Of a stretch of DNA of 33,980 nucleotides, positions 15,272 to 22,442 are shown piece after piece. The number at the start of each line of letters is the position of its first letter. Position 1 is the first letter of the stretch. Made by a program: the position numbers and the translations under genes. Source of the DNA: a bacterium (GTDB lineage: Bacteria > Omnitrophota > Gorgyraeia > Duberdicusellales > 4484-171); assembly GCA_021796115.1 (NCBI GenBank), contig JAJYOP010000020.1:1-33980 (forward strand). The letters are read 5' to 3'. Under the pieces are notes generated by a model that ran no database searches, had not been told where the DNA came from, and worked only from the letters and a program-made list of their open reading frames with translations.

Positions 15272-15697
15272 ATGACGAAAAAAATTTTTATTATTTTTAT
15301 TAATGTGGGAATCTTTTTTACTATGTTTTTGTCATCCCTGGCTTTTAGTCAGGAAACGCTGACTATTACTACTTATTATCCTGCACCATTTGGCGTATAT
15401 CGCGAATTGCAATTATTAAAGCAAGATCATAACCAGGAAATACGTTTAAATAGCGATAATACTGGCAGCGCAAATATTGAATTACGCTCTCTTACTCCAG
15501 TTGCAAGCGGTACGCCGTACATTGATTTCTCAAATGATAGCGTCAGTGATTTTGATTATCGTCTCATTCTCATGGGCGATGGTGATTTTAGATTTCAGGG
15601 TGGAACCGCAACATTTACCGATAACGCAGGAACCAGCTATGCAAACGTTAGGGCCGCGGAATTCTGGATATGCTCCGGCGCTGTAACCGCACCTTAA
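15272..15697 (+). CDS. Small secreted protein with TTYYPAP N-terminal motif
   Basis: A 141-aa protein with a signal peptide (about 1-27) followed directly by QETLTITTYYPAPFGVYREL. From memory, short secreted proteins starting TTYYPxPxGxYxEL recur in Omnitrophota-type genomes; their function is unknown. The rest is Asn/Ser/Asp-rich and beta-like, with one Cys near the C-terminus (FWICSGAVTAP). The gap to the HxsD-like gene is only 16 bases, so it probably leads the radical SAM operon. It could be a second exported partner or substrate of that system. The + strand ORF at 15477-15686 is a shadow. Confidence 0.75.
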   Translation: MTKKIFIIFINVGIFFTMFLSSLAFSQETLTITTYYPAPFGVYRELQLLKQDHNQEIRLNSDNTGSANIELRSLTPVASGTPYIDFSNDSVSDFDYRLILMGDGDFRFQGGTATFTDNAGTSYANVRAAEFWICSGAVTAP

Positions 15698-15713
15698 AAG
15701 AGACTAATCCGCT

Positions 15714-16103
15714 ATGCAAAAAATTTTAGAAAAAGCTGATGGCGGAATAAAATTGACCATCGAGCCGTCAGTTTATCCGCTTTCCACGGTTTATGCCGCA
15801 GGTTATATATTTCTGGATAAAGCTTATCTTTACGTGGATAAAAACCCTCAAGGCAAGATAATAATCTGGCTTTTTCCAAAAAAGAAAAACGAAAATTTAG
15901 ATACCTTGGGAATGGATTTTTACAACGAACTTCTTAATTACGCGCATTATTTTAGCAGTCTTAAAGTTAATGCCGGTATCGTGAAAGCGCTGATGCAGAG
16001 AGCCTTATTTTCTACTGCCCCATCCTTGGTGAATGAAGCGGGGAAAAAAGAAATCGAGAATTTAATCGGTGAATTACGGGAAAAAGAAGAATCTGACGAC
16101 TAA
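15714..16103 (+). CDS. HxsD-like protein of a His-Xaa-Ser type RiPP system
   Basis: A 129-aa protein without a signal peptide. The N-terminal half (VYPLSTVYAAGYIFLDKAYLYVD) and the central FYNELLNYAHYF followed by IVKALMQRALF resemble HxsD, the small conserved partner in His-Xaa-Ser systems, whose family has an F-x-N-E-L-L-x-Y/D-x-x-L-R type motif. The canonical Leu-Arg after the motif is replaced here by His-Tyr-Phe. The C-terminus is a charged tail. Its position two genes before an HxsB-like radical SAM protein supports the call. Its role, probably binding leader or substrate, is inferred. It could also be a different RRE-like small protein. Confidence 0.65.
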   Translation: MQKILEKADGGIKLTIEPSVYPLSTVYAAGYIFLDKAYLYVDKNPQGKIIIWLFPKKKNENLDTLGMDFYNELLNYAHYFSSLKVNAGIVKALMQRALFSTAPSLVNEAGKKEIENLIGELREKEESDD

Positions 16104-16109
16104 AGATAA

Positions 16110-16331
16110 ATGTACCATTTTTTGCAAAAAGTAGACAATAAATTAAAAATTAAATTAAATATTGAAGTATATAATAAAAGCCTGTTCGATCAAATCAGAA
16201 AAGAAGACCCCCGACGTATAAAATCCGTCAAAACAAAAAACGGCTATTTTTTTGTAGAATTAAATGTTAAGAAATCCAAAGATTATCTGGATTTTTTAAA
16301 TTACCTAATTTATCTTGAAAGAAGCAGATAA
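16110..16331 (+). CDS. Small orphan protein between HxsD-like and radical SAM genes
   Basis: A 73-aa basic protein, not recognised. It begins six bases after the HxsD-like gene and ends three bases before the radical SAM gene, so it is translationally embedded in the operon. It is Lys-rich and very AT-rich in codon use. The alternation in KIKLNIEVY and GYFFVELNVKK suggests a small beta-containing fold, ending in a helix DYLDFLNYLIYLERS. The end of that helix faintly resembles the FxNELLxY part of HxsD, so it may be a shortened HxsD paralogue or a leader-recognition protein. This is speculation. Confidence 0.6.
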   Translation: MYHFLQKVDNKLKIKLNIEVYNKSLFDQIRKEDPRRIKSVKTKNGYFFVELNVKKSKDYLDFLNYLIYLERSR

Positions 16332-16334
16332 ATC

Positions 16335-17720
16335 ATGCCTTCAATAGAAAAAGATACTTTTGCCGTACTACCCTTTAGCAGGCGTCCCATAAAAGATAAA
16401 TACCTTGTTTCTAATTTTTTAGGCGGATGGGATTTTCTGACTAAAGATGAGCTAGGTAAATTGAATTCTTTTAAAATAGAAACTGATACACCGCTTGCCA
16501 TGCGGCTCAAGGAAAGAAGTTTATTGGCTGATGAAAATAATCTGGAAGGACTTATAGAAAAGTATAGGAATTTAAACAGTAATCTATTTATTGACACATC
16601 GCTGCATATCGCTGTAGTTACTACCAGATGTAATTTATCCTGCAAATATTGTCAGACAAAGACAAAAAAAGCTGATATGGGCATTAAAGTAGCTGAACGG
16701 GTTTTAAAATATCTTTTCGATGTAAAAAACACATTAGTAAGCCTTGAGCTTCAAGGCGGAGAGGCATTGCTAAATTGGGAAACTACCAAGTTTCTTATAA
16801 AAAATAGTCGCAAGGTAAATAACGGGCAAAAGAACTTGAAAATCACAATCGTTACCAACCTTACGTTATTAGATGACGAAAAAGCAAAATTTCTTACCGA
16901 CTATGATGTAGAGATTTGCGTTTCTTTTGACGGGCCAAAATATTTACACGATAAAAATCGAATTTTTTCAAAGAACAAAGGTACCTATGATAGCGTAAGC
17001 AAGAACATCGAAAAACTTAATCAGAATTTCAAAAGAAATGTATGTTTATTGCCGACAATTACTAAGCATTCTTTAAAATATTCTAAGGAAATAATTGATG
17101 AATACATAAGGAGAGGTCAGGAAAGCATCGCTCTTCGCCCGGTTAATAAAATAGGCAATGCTTGTGTAAATTGGGACGTTCTCGGCTATTCCGCTGACGA
17201 ATTTATTGCTTTTTATAAAAAAGCAATGGATTATATTTTAGAGTTGAACAAAAAAGGCATTTTTGTAAGGGAAAGAATGGCTAATGTAATTTTGCAAAAG
17301 ATTCTTTCTGCTAAAGATCCGCGCTATGCAGATATGATGAATCCTTGCGGCGCTGGCAGGGCACAGATTGTCTATATGCCGAATGGTGACTGTTTTCCGT
17401 GTGATGAAGCAAGAATGCTTGGCGGGGAAGAATTTCTGTTGGGCAATGTTCTTAGGGATGATTATGAAAAATTGGTAAGTAATGAGAGCCTTTTGCATCT
17501 TCTGGAGATGTCGGTCGTAAATCTCTGGGATGGAAATTCCGCATTTTTTCCCTGGACAGGAACCTGCCCTGTGCTAAACTATTCTCAAGAGAATAATTTC
17601 GTGCCCAAGATACATTGTTCTTTTATGCATAAAATATACAACTTCCAGTTTGACTATTTATTTGAAAAAATTCTGGAAAGTAAAGAGAATCTTGAAATAT
17701 TTAAGCACTGGATAAATTAA
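16335..17720 (+). CDS. HxsB-like radical SAM/SPASM peptide maturase
   Basis: Predicted radical SAM enzyme that modifies a ribosomal peptide. At 461 aa it matches the length and layout of HxsB, a maturase of His-Xaa-Ser systems. An N-terminal region (about 1-85) has the LPFSRRP and LVSNFLGGWDFLTKDEL features of the family. The radical SAM motif CNLSCKYC (C99, C103, C106) is preceded by TSLHIAVVTTR. GGEALLNWE (141-149) and VSFDGPKYLHDKNR follow. The C-terminal SPASM-like part has CGAGRAQIVYMPNGDCFPC (C338, C353, C356) plus C411 and C428 for auxiliary Fe-S clusters. Canonical HXS loci have a second radical SAM protein (HxsC); none is seen here. The putative substrate gene follows after 12 bases. 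Confidence 0.85.
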   Translation: MPSIEKDTFAVLPFSRRPIKDKYLVSNFLGGWDFLTKDELGKLNSFKIETDTPLAMRLKERSLLADENNLEGLIEKYRNLNSNLFIDTSLHIAVVTTRCNLSCKYCQTKTKKADMGIKVAERVLKYLFDVKNTLVSLELQGGEALLNWETTKFLIKNSRKVNNGQKNLKITIVTNLTLLDDEKAKFLTDYDVEICVSFDGPKYLHDKNRIFSKNKGTYDSVSKNIEKLNQNFKRNVCLLPTITKHSLKYSKEIIDEYIRRGQESIALRPVNKIGNACVNWDVLGYSADEFIAFYKKAMDYILELNKKGIFVRERMANVILQKILSAKDPRYADMMNPCGAGRAQIVYMPNGDCFPCDEARMLGGEEFLLGNVLRDDYEKLVSNESLLHLLEMSVVNLWDGNSAFFPWTGTCPVLNYSQENNFVPKIHCSFMHKIYNFQFDYLFEKILESKENLEIFKHWIN

Positions 17721-17732
17721 TAGGAGGAATGA

Positions 17733-18134
17733 ATGAATAAAAAAATATTACGCAAGAAATTTAAAAAAACCATAAAAAGTTTTATTAAGGATGAAGACGG
17801 TTTTGTCAATAAAGACCAAATTTTAAAAATTGGTTTAGGAACAATTGGGTGCTTAAGTATGCTAAGTTCATTGTCTAACGTTTATGCCGGGACAATAACC
17901 GCTAATCCTTGTAGTGCAACAGTTCATGCTAATTTTGATAATACCGCGCATCAGAATGGATTAGATTGTACTGCGGTTGGAACCTGTTACAGGTGTGTTA
18001 TGCATAATAACGCTAGCGCCACTACCCACGTTGATCATTCTGCCGTAACAAATATAAAAGTTTCCGGTGTAGGAACGCTTTCCGGCAAAGGCAGCGCTGA
18101 CCTGAATATTCATTGCCCTCCAAGCTATAGATAG
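17733..18134 (+). CDS. Putative RiPP precursor, secreted Cys/His-rich peptide
   Basis: A 133-aa protein directly downstream of the radical SAM gene, with an excellent ribosome binding site (AGGAGG). It has three parts. Residues 1-30 are a very basic leader ending KSFIKDEDGFVNKDQ. Residues 30-53 are a hydrophobic segment ending VYAG. Residues 54-133 are a Cys/His-rich core with C60, C79, C85, C88, C128 and H65, H73, H91, H99, H102, H127. There is no His-Xaa-Ser triplet, but there are three His-Xaa-Asn triplets (HAN, HQN, HNN). The KDEDG-F context followed by a hydrophobic stretch resembles Flp-type prepilin leaders, while VYA-G would suit signal peptidase I. The position and composition suggest a maturase substrate; this is inference. 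Confidence 0.7.
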   Translation: MNKKILRKKFKKTIKSFIKDEDGFVNKDQILKIGLGTIGCLSMLSSLSNVYAGTITANPCSATVHANFDNTAHQNGLDCTAVGTCYRCVMHNNASATTHVDHSAVTNIKVSGVGTLSGKGSADLNIHCPPSYR

Positions 18135-18143
18135 TTGCTATAA

Positions 18144-19001
18144 TTATTTGATTGCTAACGGAAGCTTTATTACCCACCAGAGAAAATCTGTATTTGTCAG
18201 GAGCGCACCCAAGAAAACAAAAGGCGAGAAGGAGATACGCATTGGCTTTTGCTCTTTTAGATAAACAATGTTTGTCAGGATATAAAAGATAATCGAGTAA
18301 ACAAGCATATACCTTAAATAGCTGAAAAAATTATCAACAGAGAATGAGTATGGCATCACGATATATCTTAAAGCTAAGCCGGCTATCATTATAAAAACAA
18401 TCAAGAATTTGCTTATTCTGCCAAGGCACTTGGAAATCAGTAAATACCCGCCAAAAAGAAGTATAAAATTTAAAAAGATATTGTTTTGAAGAGGCAAAAA
18501 AGCCATTATCGGTTGTATTACCCAGGATACGCAGAAAGTAATAAAGAAAATTTGGCCGAAAAACAAAATAACTTTTTTAATCGCGGCTTTCTTGAAAACC
18601 ATAGTTTTGTTATGTATAATACCGTATATTGATAAGGGCAAAAGAAACAGGAAGCTAAGCAAAAATGTATTGATAAATAAGGTAAAACAGGAAAGTGGCA
18701 AAATAGCCGAATAACCATTTGCCGGCAAAAGCAAAGAATAGGTAGCAAACAACTTAGCGTCTCCCGGTTTCCATAATCCAGAAAGATAAAAAAGAAAACC
18801 GATGACTAAACCTGCGATTGGATTCAAGATGAGGTGGATGGACATTTTTAAATTGCCCGATAAAAATAAAATAAAGTATAATAATAGAGCTAACGAACCG
18901 ATAAATAAAAGATGGGCGTTTTTTATCTTGCGTTGGCAAATATCCGTATAGATAGTTAGAATTCCCGTAAGAACGATTAAACCGTAAAAATAGATACTCA
19001 T
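18144..19001 (-). CDS. Prepilin peptidase-like (A24 family) membrane protein
   Basis: Polytopic membrane protein with about eight to nine hydrophobic segments. Two aspartates sit in A24-like contexts: YTDICQRKIKN (compare D-x-x-x-R-x-I-P-N) and KPGDAKLFA (compare G-x-G-D-x-K-L). These are the two catalytic Asp of prepilin peptidases, so peptidase activity is plausible. It lacks the N-terminal Cys-rich methyltransferase domain of PilD; the C-terminal half (about residues 120-300) is additional membrane segments of unknown role. The ORF track starts at a TTG (19049); I prefer the ATG at 19001, with another ATG at 19031. A TATAAT lies just upstream of 19001. It converges with the putative precursor gene (9-base gap), so it may process that peptide, but no data show this. 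Confidence 0.7.
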   Translation of the reverse strand: MSIYFYGLIVLTGILTIYTDICQRKIKNAHLLFIGSLALLLYFILFLSGNLKMSIHLILNPIAGLVIGFLFYLSGLWKPGDAKLFATYSLLLPANGYSAILPLSCFTLFINTFLLSFLFLLPLSIYGIIHNKTMVFKKAAIKKVILFFGQIFFITFCVSWVIQPIMAFLPLQNNIFLNFILLFGGYLLISKCLGRISKFLIVFIMIAGLALRYIVMPYSFSVDNFFSYLRYMLVYSIIFYILTNIVYLKEQKPMRISFSPFVFLGALLTNTDFLWWVIKLPLAIK

Positions 19002-19054
19002 ATATTTTGCAATATTATAACATACCTTCATAATATTAAAAACTGACAAACTAA

Positions 19055-20062
19055 ATGAGTAGTTTATCTGATTTCAAAGTTAACGCGTGCCAGGAGGCTG
19101 ATTTAATCCGGGTAATTGATTTTTTCAAAAAGATGCAAAACAGCACTCTTTATTTCCTGCCGGAAGAAAAAAACGATATCGTAAAGAAGTATAGAAAATA
19201 TAAAGATGGTTCGGAAGGCTTAAGCCTATTTTTGCTTAAGGATAAAAATAAAAATATCATCGGTTGCAGCGGTTATGTGCCGTTTAAGGGGATTTTGTGC
19301 GGACAGGCAATTGATGGTTTTATCGGTTCGGATGCGATAATAGATGCAAACGAAAGAAAGCAGTTTCCATTACTTGCGATGCTCCTTGCTCATTGCTATG
19401 AAAATTTAGTCCGTAAAGAAAAACTTTTTCCTTTAGTCTGCCCGGCGAACAAAGAAGTGTCAAAATCTTTTGAGAGCGTTCAGTGGCAAGATTTTTGCCG
19501 TATTTGGCGGCTCACCAGCGATTTTGCGGTTAAAATGATACCAAAACTGGTTTTTTCAGGTATCGAATTCAAGCAGATTAAACATTTTGATAAAGATTTT
19601 AAATCTTTTTTTGAAAAGATTAAAGAGGAACACCATTTTTTATTAAATACGGATATAAGTTTTCTAAACTGGAAATATTTTTCTGACTCATCTGCCAAAA
19701 ATGTGGTTTTGGCCGCATTCAAGAAGAAAAAAATTTCAGGTTATATAATAGCTGAAAAGAGATACGGCGATATACATATTATCGATATAACTGTAGATTT
19801 AAAATACCCAAGTACGATATTATATTTATTATTTAAATCTTTAGATTATTTTGAAATAAAAGAATTAACTCCGATAGTCTGCTGCCTTAGCCATAAATCC
19901 TATATTGATATTCTGATGCGTGCGGGATTCATACAGAATTGGCGTATAGATTGTTTATTCTTTAAAGTGGGCCTTTTGTTTAGTAAAATAAAGTCCGGTA
20001 ATTTTTATTCATCAAATAAAGATTTATATCATTTCAATGGTTTCGCCCAGCATTTATATTAA
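19055..20062 (+). CDS. GNAT-like acyltransferase family protein
   Basis: A 335-aa cytoplasmic protein, probably of the GNAT acyltransferase superfamily. The N-terminal half (VNACQEADLIRVIDFF, then GFIGSDAIIDANERKQFPLLAMLLAHCYENLV) resembles the acyl-CoA-binding motif A region, although the usual Q/RxxGxG/A loop is degenerate (ERKQFPL). The C-terminal half (FLNWKYFSDS, then FKKKKISGYIIAEKRYGDIHIIDITVD, ending LMRAGF) looks like a second GNAT-like unit. It is encoded divergently from the A24 gene and 14 bases upstream of the ketosynthase-like gene, so it probably belongs with the KS/ACP module, perhaps as an acyltransferase. The substrate is unknown. Confidence 0.6.
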   Translation: MSSLSDFKVNACQEADLIRVIDFFKKMQNSTLYFLPEEKNDIVKKYRKYKDGSEGLSLFLLKDKNKNIIGCSGYVPFKGILCGQAIDGFIGSDAIIDANERKQFPLLAMLLAHCYENLVRKEKLFPLVCPANKEVSKSFESVQWQDFCRIWRLTSDFAVKMIPKLVFSGIEFKQIKHFDKDFKSFFEKIKEEHHFLLNTDISFLNWKYFSDSSAKNVVLAAFKKKKISGYIIAEKRYGDIHIIDITVDLKYPSTILYLLFKSLDYFEIKELTPIVCCLSHKSYIDILMRAGFIQNWRIDCLFFKVGLLFSKIKSGNFYSSNKDLYHFNGFAQHLY

Positions 20063-20076
20063 CCTAAAATAATCTT

Positions 20077-20973
20077 ATGAACTTTTCTATAACCGGCATA
20101 GACATTGTAAACAGAAAAAATAATTTTAGTATAGACGATATTCCCGGCTCTATAAAAACGGCCTTCCGTGACAGCGATACAAAAATAGACAATAAAAATT
20201 GCCGCACAGTAGGGATTTTTATCGGCACTACCTTCCATAATTCCGATACCAGAAGAGATAATACCGATAATTACCGTAAAGGCGGAGTAAGAATAGTAAA
20301 CCCTGCGGATTTTCCAAGATGCCTTATCTCTTATCTGGGAGGTCATTTATCCGGCACTTTTAACTTAAAAGGTGCAAACAGCACTATGTCTTCGGGTATT
20401 TCTTCTGGATTTGATGCGCTTATTCAAGCGGCATATTTTGTGGAACAAACAAAGAGAAATAAAGCTTTAGTCGTAGAATTGGAAGAAAAAGTATCGGAGG
20501 ATTTAAAATGTGTTTTAGGCGGCAGTGCCTGCCTTGTAATAGAGAATAAGGCTGGAACCGCAAAAAAGGATAATAATATTTATGGAGATATTTTGGCGAT
20601 AGAGTCATTTTTTGAACGAGAGGGAAAAAACAGCAGCCTCGCAAAAGCAATAGGGAAGGTCCTGGAAAAAAGCAGATTAAACTTGAGAGACATAGATTAC
20701 ATTTTTATTCCGGAAAAACCAAAGACAGCACCTTATAGTCCGGAAGAGAATACATTAAAAGAATTTTCTAATCTTTCAAATATCGAGCCTCCCTACCGTC
20801 TTTTTAAAATAGCCGGGCACAACAAAGGGTTGTTTATGATTGCCAATATTTTGAAAAATATGGATTTTGCTGCTTATCCAGAGAAAAAACCGATTATTTC
20901 ACTTTTTCTTTCCTTAGGCAAAGATAGTAACAGCAGTTCCGCAGTCATCAAAATATACAGAGGGGGTAGATAG
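20077..20973 (+). CDS. Catalytically degenerate ketosynthase-like protein (CLF-like)
   Basis: A 298-aa protein with a reduced thiolase/ketosynthase fold. The usual nucleophile motif (ACSTG-like) is replaced by STMSSGISSGFDALIQAA, with Ser at the Cys position. The first catalytic His (NAHGT) aligns with IPEKPKT and is missing. A second-His equivalent remains in KIAGHNKGLF. It is about 100 residues shorter than normal ketosynthases. This pattern is like chain length factor (KS-beta) subunits, which pair with an active KS-alpha. The active ketosynthase two genes downstream could be its partner. It has no ribosome binding site and sits in a tight + strand operon. Confidence 0.75.
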   Translation: MNFSITGIDIVNRKNNFSIDDIPGSIKTAFRDSDTKIDNKNCRTVGIFIGTTFHNSDTRRDNTDNYRKGGVRIVNPADFPRCLISYLGGHLSGTFNLKGANSTMSSGISSGFDALIQAAYFVEQTKRNKALVVELEEKVSEDLKCVLGGSACLVIENKAGTAKKDNNIYGDILAIESFFEREGKNSSLAKAIGKVLEKSRLNLRDIDYIFIPEKPKTAPYSPEENTLKEFSNLSNIEPPYRLFKIAGHNKGLFMIANILKNMDFAAYPEKKPIISLFLSLGKDSNSSSAVIKIYRGGR

Positions 20974-20977
20974 GCTT

Positions 20978-21292
20978 ATGAATAAAGAATCCGGCGACAA
21001 AAAAAGCAAAACAAAACTTCCGTCAAAAAGTAAACTTAAAAGCAAAAGCGAAGAGAAGATAAAAAAAGAAATTGTAGAAATAATAAGTAATTTAGGAAAA
21101 ATTCCCAAAGAGAGGATAGATTTGAAAGAGCACTTTACCTCGGCAGGGCTCGATTCTTTTACGATAATCGAGATAATTTTTGCCATCGAAAATAAGTTTG
21201 AAATTGATATTCCTCAGGATAGCCTGGCAAATATTCAGAATGTCGGCCAGCTTATCGAACTCACAAAACAATTAATAGAAAAACGTGGCTGA
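20978..21292 (+). CDS. Acyl carrier protein
   Basis: A 104-aa carrier protein. The phosphopantetheine attachment site is S60 in SAGLDSFTIIE, with helix III in FEIDIPQDSLANIQNVGQLIEL. An unusual N-terminal tail of about 28 residues is made almost only of Lys, Ser and Glu, unlike FAS-type AcpP (about 78 aa). It starts four bases after the ketosynthase-like gene and overlaps the downstream ketosynthase by 8 bases, so it very probably serves that module rather than general fatty acid synthesis. Confidence 0.92.
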   Translation: MNKESGDKKSKTKLPSKSKLKSKSEEKIKKEIVEIISNLGKIPKERIDLKEHFTSAGLDSFTIIEIIFAIENKFEIDIPQDSLANIQNVGQLIELTKQLIEKRG

Positions 21293-22442
21293 AAGAGTTG
21301 TTATCACAGGTTTGGGTTTGGTGACATCGCTCGGCAGTAGCCTTGAGGAATTTTGGCCTAATTTAACGAATGGTAAATCAGGTATAAGCAAAATTTCAGC
21401 GTTCGATACCTCACACTTAGAACGCCATTACGGCGGCGAAATAAAAAATTTTAGCTTTAAACTTCCTGATAATAAAATTTCCGGATATTTGCCCAGATCG
21501 CATCAATTCGCCATCACTGCTTCCAGAAGCGCTTTTAAAGACGCTGCAATAATCAATTCTAAAGAAGCGGGATTAGCTCATGGCACCATAGTATCGGGGC
21601 TGGAGTTTTTAGAGAATAAAAGAAAAAAATTCCCAGAATACCCTGTGTACATGGCTACGGCAAATATTTGTAAAGCGCTTGGGCTAGAGGGAAGTGCTTT
21701 TACTCTATCGGGTGCATGTGCAGCAGGTAATTATGCAATAAGCCTTGCGTATGAAAGAATCAAAAATAGCCAGGAGACTATTATGTTGGCTGGAGCAACG
21801 GATTATTTTTCTTTAGGTACCTTCATCGGCCTTTATCGCGTTTTTTCGCTCGCGCCTTTAAAATGCCAGCCTTTTGATAAAAATCGAAAAGGCCTTATAC
21901 CTGCTGAAGGTTCCGGTATGCTTGTGTTAGAAAGTCTTTCTTCCGCCAAAAAAAGAAACGCACATATTTATGCAGAAATTTTAGGTTATGGCTTAAGTGC
22001 TGACGCATATCACCCGCTCATACCTTTGCAGGAGGGAGTTTTTAATTGTATGGAGAGAGCTCTCAGGGTTACAGGATTATCGCCAGGCGACATAGATTAT
22101 ATTAACGCCCACGGAACAGGTACGGTGCCTAACGATAAAACCGAATGCGCAGCGATAAAAAAAATATTCGGTAAAAAGCGCGCTAAAACTATACCTGTAA
22201 GTTCAATTAAATCAATGCTGGGCCACAGTATGGGTGCAGCTTCTTCCATTGAGGCCATTTCCTGCTGCCTTACTTTAAAGACCGGGGTTATTCCGCCCAC
22301 AATTAATTACGAAACTCCCGATCCGGAATGTAATATCGATTGTGTTCCAAACAAAGCCAGGCGTCAAAAAGTTAAAATTATATTGAATAATTCTTTTGGT
22401 TTTGGCGGTATGAACTGTTCTTTAGTTTTATCGGCATACTAA
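21285..22442 (+). CDS. Beta-ketoacyl-ACP synthase (KAS II/FabF type)
   Basis: Condensing enzyme that extends an acyl chain with malonyl-ACP. At 385 aa it is slightly shorter than FabF (about 410). The catalytic triad is complete: C145 in SGACAAG, H276 in NAHGTGT and H314 in MLGHSMGAA, with K309 in SIKS. The C-terminal FGFGGMNCSLVL is typical. It starts at a GTG inside the end of the ACP gene (8-base overlap). The neighbours (ACP and CLF-like protein) suggest a dedicated minimal type II polyketide or special fatty acid system, not the housekeeping fab cluster: no fabD, fabG, fabH or fabZ is present. Confidence 0.93.
   Translation: MAERVVITGLGLVTSLGSSLEEFWPNLTNGKSGISKISAFDTSHLERHYGGEIKNFSFKLPDNKISGYLPRSHQFAITASRSAFKDAAIINSKEAGLAHGTIVSGLEFLENKRKKFPEYPVYMATANICKALGLEGSAFTLSGACAAGNYAISLAYERIKNSQETIMLAGATDYFSLGTFIGLYRVFSLAPLKCQPFDKNRKGLIPAEGSGMLVLESLSSAKKRNAHIYAEILGYGLSADAYHPLIPLQEGVFNCMERALRVTGLSPGDIDYINAHGTGTVPNDKTECAAIKKIFGKKRAKTIPVSSIKSMLGHSMGAASSIEAISCCLTLKTGVIPPTINYETPDPECNIDCVPNKARRQKVKIILNNSFGFGGMNCSLVLSAY

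Follow-up and report, generated by a model that had tools for sequence, protein, structure and literature searches.

We analyzed a 33,980-nt stretch of Omnitrophota DNA (Gorgyraeia, Duberdicusellales, 4484-171; GenBank assembly GCA_021796115.1, contig JAJYOP010000020.1), hereafter called the window, which constitutes a complete contig (C43) of a 1.72-Mb genome with 43 contigs and 87.75% completeness. Five open reading frames (ORFs) on the forward strand at positions 15272–18134 appear to encode a reduced His-Xaa-Ser (HXS)-type system for a ribosomally synthesized and post-translationally modified peptide (RiPP), a reading to which we assign a probability of roughly 0.78. That the locus specifies an HXS-type RiPP of the radical S-adenosylmethionine (SAM) kind is highly probable, and the system belongs to the known HXS kind as a variant rather than forming a separate class. 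The most valuable new facts are its linkage to an A24 peptidase gene and its minimal one-enzyme layout. The original prediction, made from the sequence of the window, had described the five ORFs as lying head to tail with gaps of 3–16 bases; their coordinates and gaps (16, 6, 3 and 12 bases) were exactly confirmed (Table 1).

The 461-aa product matched the HxsB model (TIGR03978) at 385.8 bits over model positions 2–466 of 466, exceeding the curated cut-off of 370. It also matched Radical_SAM (PF04055) at 2.5e-16, with the SPASM match (PF13186) below cut-off. PapB (134 bits), the SCIFF maturase (113.5 bits) and the anaerobic sulfatase maturase (99.6 bits) ranked lower. Assignment to the last of these or to another SPASM enzyme was, therefore, rejected (99.6 versus 385.8 bits), and the proposed HxsB-like radical SAM/SPASM identity stood, with no other SPASM family scoring better. 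As predicted, HxsB is the sole radical SAM enzyme of the cassette. The HXS relationship was further supported by a match of the upstream protein to HxsD and of the precursor leader to HxsA3.

The 129-aa protein had been proposed to be HxsD-like, in agreement with its near full-length match to TIGR03976 (33.8 bits, E = 3.2e-8), though this is below the cut-off of 50; proteins at the equivalent position in relatives reach up to 72 bits. Judged by its sequence, the protein is probably a divergent HxsD. The following 73-aa product, previously regarded as an orphan, is very probably a second HxsD-like protein, here termed HxsD2. Comparison by hhalign of 25 HxsD proteins (alignment A1) with 17 small proteins encoded between hxsD and hxsB (alignment A2) related the two families with 93.7% probability (E = 2e-7). 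AlphaFold2 models of HxsD (predicted local distance difference test score (pLDDT), 82.7) and HxsD2 (pLDDT, 90.1) have a common strand (E) and helix (H) order, E-E-H-E-E-H, with a far longer helical C-terminus in HxsD. In relatives, TIGR03976 matches hxsD and, weakly, the next ORF (67 and 20.8 bits in G179; 72 and 20.5 bits in G089), and 17 loci have an ORF equivalent to HxsD2 in the interval separating hxsD from hxsB. Neither model had a PDB fold match at E ≤ 0.001. Interpretation of HxsD as a RiPP recognition element or another solved fold was rejected on this result and on the lack of a sequence match.

The Cys/His-rich peptide encoded downstream of HxsB had been presumed to be the substrate, an assignment strengthened by its presence in related genomes. 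Its leader matched HxsA3 (NF038309) at positions 4–47 of 81 (26 bits, E = 5.7e-6; cut-off 65), peptides of the close relatives L034 and L050 matched HxsA3 across leader and core, and one relative's peptide from a second HxsB clade exceeded the HxsA4 (NF038313) cut-off (74.2 versus 55 bits). Residues E21, G23 and G34 are invariant in 23 homologous peptides (alignment A3). The original prediction had stressed the lack of His-Xaa-Ser repeats and set the substrate apart from the HXS kind. The core indeed contains no HxS triplet, but the statement misleads, as three HxN triplets (HAN, HQN and HNN) and one HxD triplet (HVD) are present; with His residues so placed and a leader matching HxsA3, the peptide does not fall outside the HXS kind. 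Across the 23 homologs, 142 of 161 His-x-x triplets were HxS or HxN; HxS was observed 93 times versus 30 expected from shuffled cores and HxN 49 times versus 11.7, with corresponding HxN values of 3 and 0.5 for the window core. Because HxS and HxN alternate among homologs, the window peptide lies, at the sequence level, at the Asn extreme of a gradation from Ser to Asn.

These triplets invite comparison to triceptide enzymes (XncB, OscB, MscB, HaaB, YhhB and FxsB), with which the window system shares an aromatic-x-Ser/Asn/Asp motif, i to i + 2 spacing and a SPASM-type radical SAM enzyme. Triceptide enzymes join residues i and i + 2, including by C2(His)–Cβ, Phe–Cβ(Ser) and Trp–Cβ(Asn/Asp) bonds (PMC11002830). 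By this analogy, a cyclophane-type cross-link can be tentatively suggested, at somewhat less than even odds. We also considered that HxsB might form thioether (ranthipeptide-like) links from Cys, with the His residues acting as metal ligands or being incidental. The window core holds five Cys residues, and PapB and the SCIFF maturase are the second-best and third-best families of HxsB; homologous cores, however, mostly contain one Cys or none and are strongly enriched in HxS/HxN triplets, making thioether formation improbable.

The order hxsD, gene for an ~75-aa protein, hxsB and Cys/His-rich peptide gene was found again in other Omnitrophota with diverged sequences and is, therefore, not a chance arrangement. 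Of the five-gene order envisaged for related genomes, these four genes recur, while the upstream secreted protein is usual and its family is multicopy in the own genome. With the HXS system (HxsA/HxsB/HxsC/HxsD; TIGR03976–TIGR03978), the window shares an HxsB that clears its cut-off, an hxsD-like gene preceding the one for HxsB and a small His-rich secreted precursor. In canonical plasmid HXS loci (Aeromonas, Nostoc, Methylobacter and Adhaeribacter), hxsC directly follows hxsB and no A24 gene is present. The window differs in having no HxsC, two HxsD-like proteins, HxN in place of HxS and an adjoining A24 gene, and its HxsB is at most ~34% identical to the plasmid copies. The suggestion of a wholly undescribed radical SAM branch was not sustained, as NCBIfam already contains models for HxsA3, HxsA4 and HxsC4 (NF038332) and the peptide passing HxsA4 is from an Omnitrophota relative. 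The likeness to these flavors extends to the HxsA3-like leader and to HxsC4-like genes in sister loci; unlike them, the window peptide is below the HxsA3 cut-off and its own assembled genome lacks HxsC4.

The proposed absence of HxsC held for the assembled genome, in which none was found over cut-off; the best TIGR03977 match (37.6 bits) was HxsB itself, and no match to NF038332 was detected. A location of HxsC elsewhere in the assembled genome was rejected on these profile searches. With 87.75% completeness, the evidence for absence is strong, short of proof. HxsC over cut-off was found in none of 25 HxsB-positive Omnitrophota genomes searched, and HxsC4-like enzymes occur in many HxsB-positive Omnitrophota; L034 and L046, for example, encode one immediately upstream of hxsB. 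The HxsB tree shows at least five switches between having and lacking an HxsC-like gene next door, so the absence is regarded as a recurrent variant. An ordinary HXS system, not reduced at all, with its HxsC gene in the 12% of the genome missing from the assembly would fit the 43 contigs and the close relative L034 (59% identity), where an HxsC4-like gene immediately precedes hxsB. In L034, however, that gene adjoins hxsB, and the window has an intact hxsD–hxsD2–hxsB run without room for HxsC; the other close relative, G286, yielded only a generic 33-bit HxsC match, and at least eight other HxsB-positive genomes also lack an HxsC-like gene. We, therefore, consider this explanation quite unlikely. 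Least probable is a decaying locus that lost its HxS triplets, HxsC, a second radical SAM enzyme, GT28 and DegT and gained a C-terminal tail, since, although accessory genes of L035 and L069 are missing beside the window copy and its peptide runs 27 residues past HVDHSAV where the closest relatives end at HVNHDAY or HMSHDSY, no ORF is disrupted, the gaps between them are short, HxsB retains its full length and its motifs, and HxN is enriched in the core.

The mean HxN share by genome was 0.68 for HxsC-less genomes and 0.34 for those with HxsC-like genes (raw p = 0.003). A tie between HxN-rich cores and HxsC-less loci was, however, unsupported after control for relatedness (sign test on three independent pairs drawn from supported branches, p = 1).

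The original prediction had confined the system to five genes; an A24 (type IV prepilin peptidase family) gene outside this run appears to be part of it as well. HxsB-positive genomes typically encode one ordinary prepilin peptidase and one divergent A24 homolog of a separate subfamily, the gene for which usually lies ~2–17 kb from hxsB on the same contig in HxsB-positive Omnitrophota. A profile of this subfamily matched 27 of 270 Omnitrophota genomes, comprising all 24 sampled HxsB-positive genomes but only 3 of the remaining 246 (p ~2e-31, without correction for relatedness among the genomes). This tally was obtained by matching two genome lists and leaves out the HxsB-positive G282, which was taken as unsampled because it carries the gene but does not appear among the profile matches. 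Since co-occurrence with HxsB is almost perfect, the A24 gene is very probably a functional part of the HXS system. The three HxsB-less genomes are G203, with the gene at a contig end, G195, from the genus of HxsB-positive G179, and G127, for which only the A24 match was looked at. An interpretation of G203 as carrying a decayed HxsB beside its A24 gene proved wrong: the radical SAM gene there is intact and different, and the A24 gene sits where the contig stops. No annotated A24 gene was found within 7 kb of the four canonical plasmid HXS loci. The window copy scored 20.4 bits to Peptidase_A24 (PF01478; gathering score, 26.5), which several relatives of its subfamily pass; D19, N27, G79, D80 and K82 are invariant in 14 A24 sequences and both Asp motifs are kept.

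That the A24 peptidase cleaves the precursor itself has about even odds. The precedent is TadV, a dedicated prepilin peptidase that cuts 50–80-aa Flp prepilins after Gly in a G/XXXXEY motif (PMC4322843). Like Flp/Tad with TadV/CpaA, the window system has an apparently dedicated A24-type peptidase without a methyltransferase domain and a short precursor, in which the leader (KDEDG/FVNKDQILKIGLGTIGCLSML) presents an acidic-x-Gly motif, Asp at +5 and a subsequent hydrophobic stretch. Among the 15 aligned peptides from the HxsB clade to which the window belongs, 13 have Glu or Asp at position +5. Unlike in Flp/Tad, the window-type peptidase measures ~290 aa, and the precursor has no Pfam pilin match and no Tyr at +6.

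In the proposed mechanism, HxsD and HxsD2 would hold the conserved leader so that the core is offered to HxsB. With SAM and Fe–S clusters, HxsB would join the His ring to the β carbon of residue i + 2 in H-x-N/S/D triplets, similar to the reaction of three-residue cyclophane enzymes. No further modifying enzyme would be needed in the window system, and the HxsC-like enzymes of relatives would add a second, optional modification. The modified precursor would then enter the membrane, where the dedicated A24 peptidase would cleave it behind the invariant Gly (DEDG/FVNKD) in the manner of TadV acting on the Flp prepilin; alternatively, signal peptidase I would cleave it at an Ala-x-Ala-like site preceding the core. 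This would yield a small modified peptide, either exported or membrane anchored. A more far-reaching version, in which Omnitrophota HXS peptides are pilin-like precursors that receive His cross-links from HxsB and are cut by A24 to become membrane anchored or filament forming, with the window as a minimal form featuring HxsB as sole enzyme and a His-Xaa-Asn motif, seems doubtful.

Several observations weigh against this scheme. For the window copies, the matches to HxsD, HxsA3 and A24 fall short of the curated cut-offs. The literature searched contained only passing mentions and no chemistry for any HXS system, so the cross-link is proposed by analogy only. HxsB reached at most 70 bits to the known cyclophane formers YhhB, GrrM and FxsB, compared to triceptide family cut-offs of 310–445, and by these profiles lies outside the known triceptide enzyme families. 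Regarding cleavage, the second clade, whose genomes have the A24 gene as well, shows Lys or Asn at position +5, and unlike in Flp pilins a Lys interrupts the hydrophobic stretch. No pilus (Tad) assembly genes were seen beside the locus. In addition, many or most leaders carry a signal-peptidase site of the Ala-x-Ala-like type immediately ahead of the core, which makes signal peptidase I a real alternative to A24.

Table 1 Features of the HXS locus and adjoining genes in the window.
Feature	Position	Strand	Evidence or remarks
'TTYYPAPFGVYREL' family secreted protein, 141 aa	15272..15697	+	First gene of the run
HxsD-like protein, 129 aa	15714..16103	+	TIGR03976 match below cut-off; alignment of homologs; AlphaFold2 model
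Probable second HxsD-like protein (HxsD2), 73 aa	16110..16331	+	hhalign, AlphaFold2 fold, position
HxsB radical SAM maturase, 461 aa	16335..17720	+	TIGR03978 over full length; CNLSCKYC motif; diverged SPASM-type C-terminal half
HxsA3-like precursor, 133 aa	17733..18134	+	N-terminus basic; leader and hydrophobic segment KDEDG/FVNKDQILKIGLGT; core rich in Cys and His
A24 (type IV prepilin peptidase family) homolog	18144..19049	-	Convergent with peptide gene; motifs TDICQRKIKN and PGDAK
335-aa protein, ketoacyl-synthase-like protein, acyl carrier protein (ACP), ketoacyl synthase	19055..22442	+	Divergent from A24 gene; probable accessory operon

The four genes beyond the A24 gene probably constitute an accessory operon and may form a lipid-related or acyl-modifying arm of the cluster. 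The same genes occur in the same order at the A24 locus of the same-family genome G203 (L069, 4722–7997), with identities to the window of 32% (335-aa protein), 33% (ketoacyl-synthase-like protein), 43% (ACP) and 66% (ketoacyl synthase). There they follow genes for A24, a GT28 glycosyltransferase, a radical SAM protein and a DegT aminotransferase, and because of this arrangement the window resembles a cut-down version of a more extensive cluster. Loci of relatives likewise add GT28 and DegT between or beside the HXS genes, as well as a 435-aa radical SAM protein, absent from the window locus, with strong matches only in HxsB-positive genomes.

At the other end of the run, the 'TTYYPAPFGVYREL' family protein is probably not HXS specific, being multicopy in the genome, though it is often upstream of hxsD; in other Omnitrophota loci, a 'TTYYPSPYG' secreted protein usually precedes the recurring hxsD–hxsB–peptide order. 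Secreted proteins starting with TTYYPSPYG/TTYYPAPFG occur at seven places in the own genome (including G000:C15, C4 and C5) and belong to no Pfam family. In relatives, two further protein families of ~241 aa (L036:6251-6976) and ~252 aa (L035:6765-7523), the latter with Cys residues and an N-terminus resembling a signal sequence, are encoded beside the precursor gene; neither has a Pfam or NCBIfam family and both are absent next to the window copy. Dense runs of radical SAM genes, some with ORFs of 600–1000 aa, were additionally observed in HXS-bearing Omnitrophota (G179:C34, G117:C26, G170:C26 and G159:C29, partly covered by L038, L043, L048 and L071), in most cases sharing a contig with hxsB.

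Having just one radical SAM enzyme, one precursor and four H-x-N/D triplets, the window locus is the simplest version of the system to reconstitute and makes the role of HxsB directly testable. The tie to A24 provides a first concrete hypothesis for maturation and export of HXS precursors and would connect RiPP biosynthesis to the processing of pilins.

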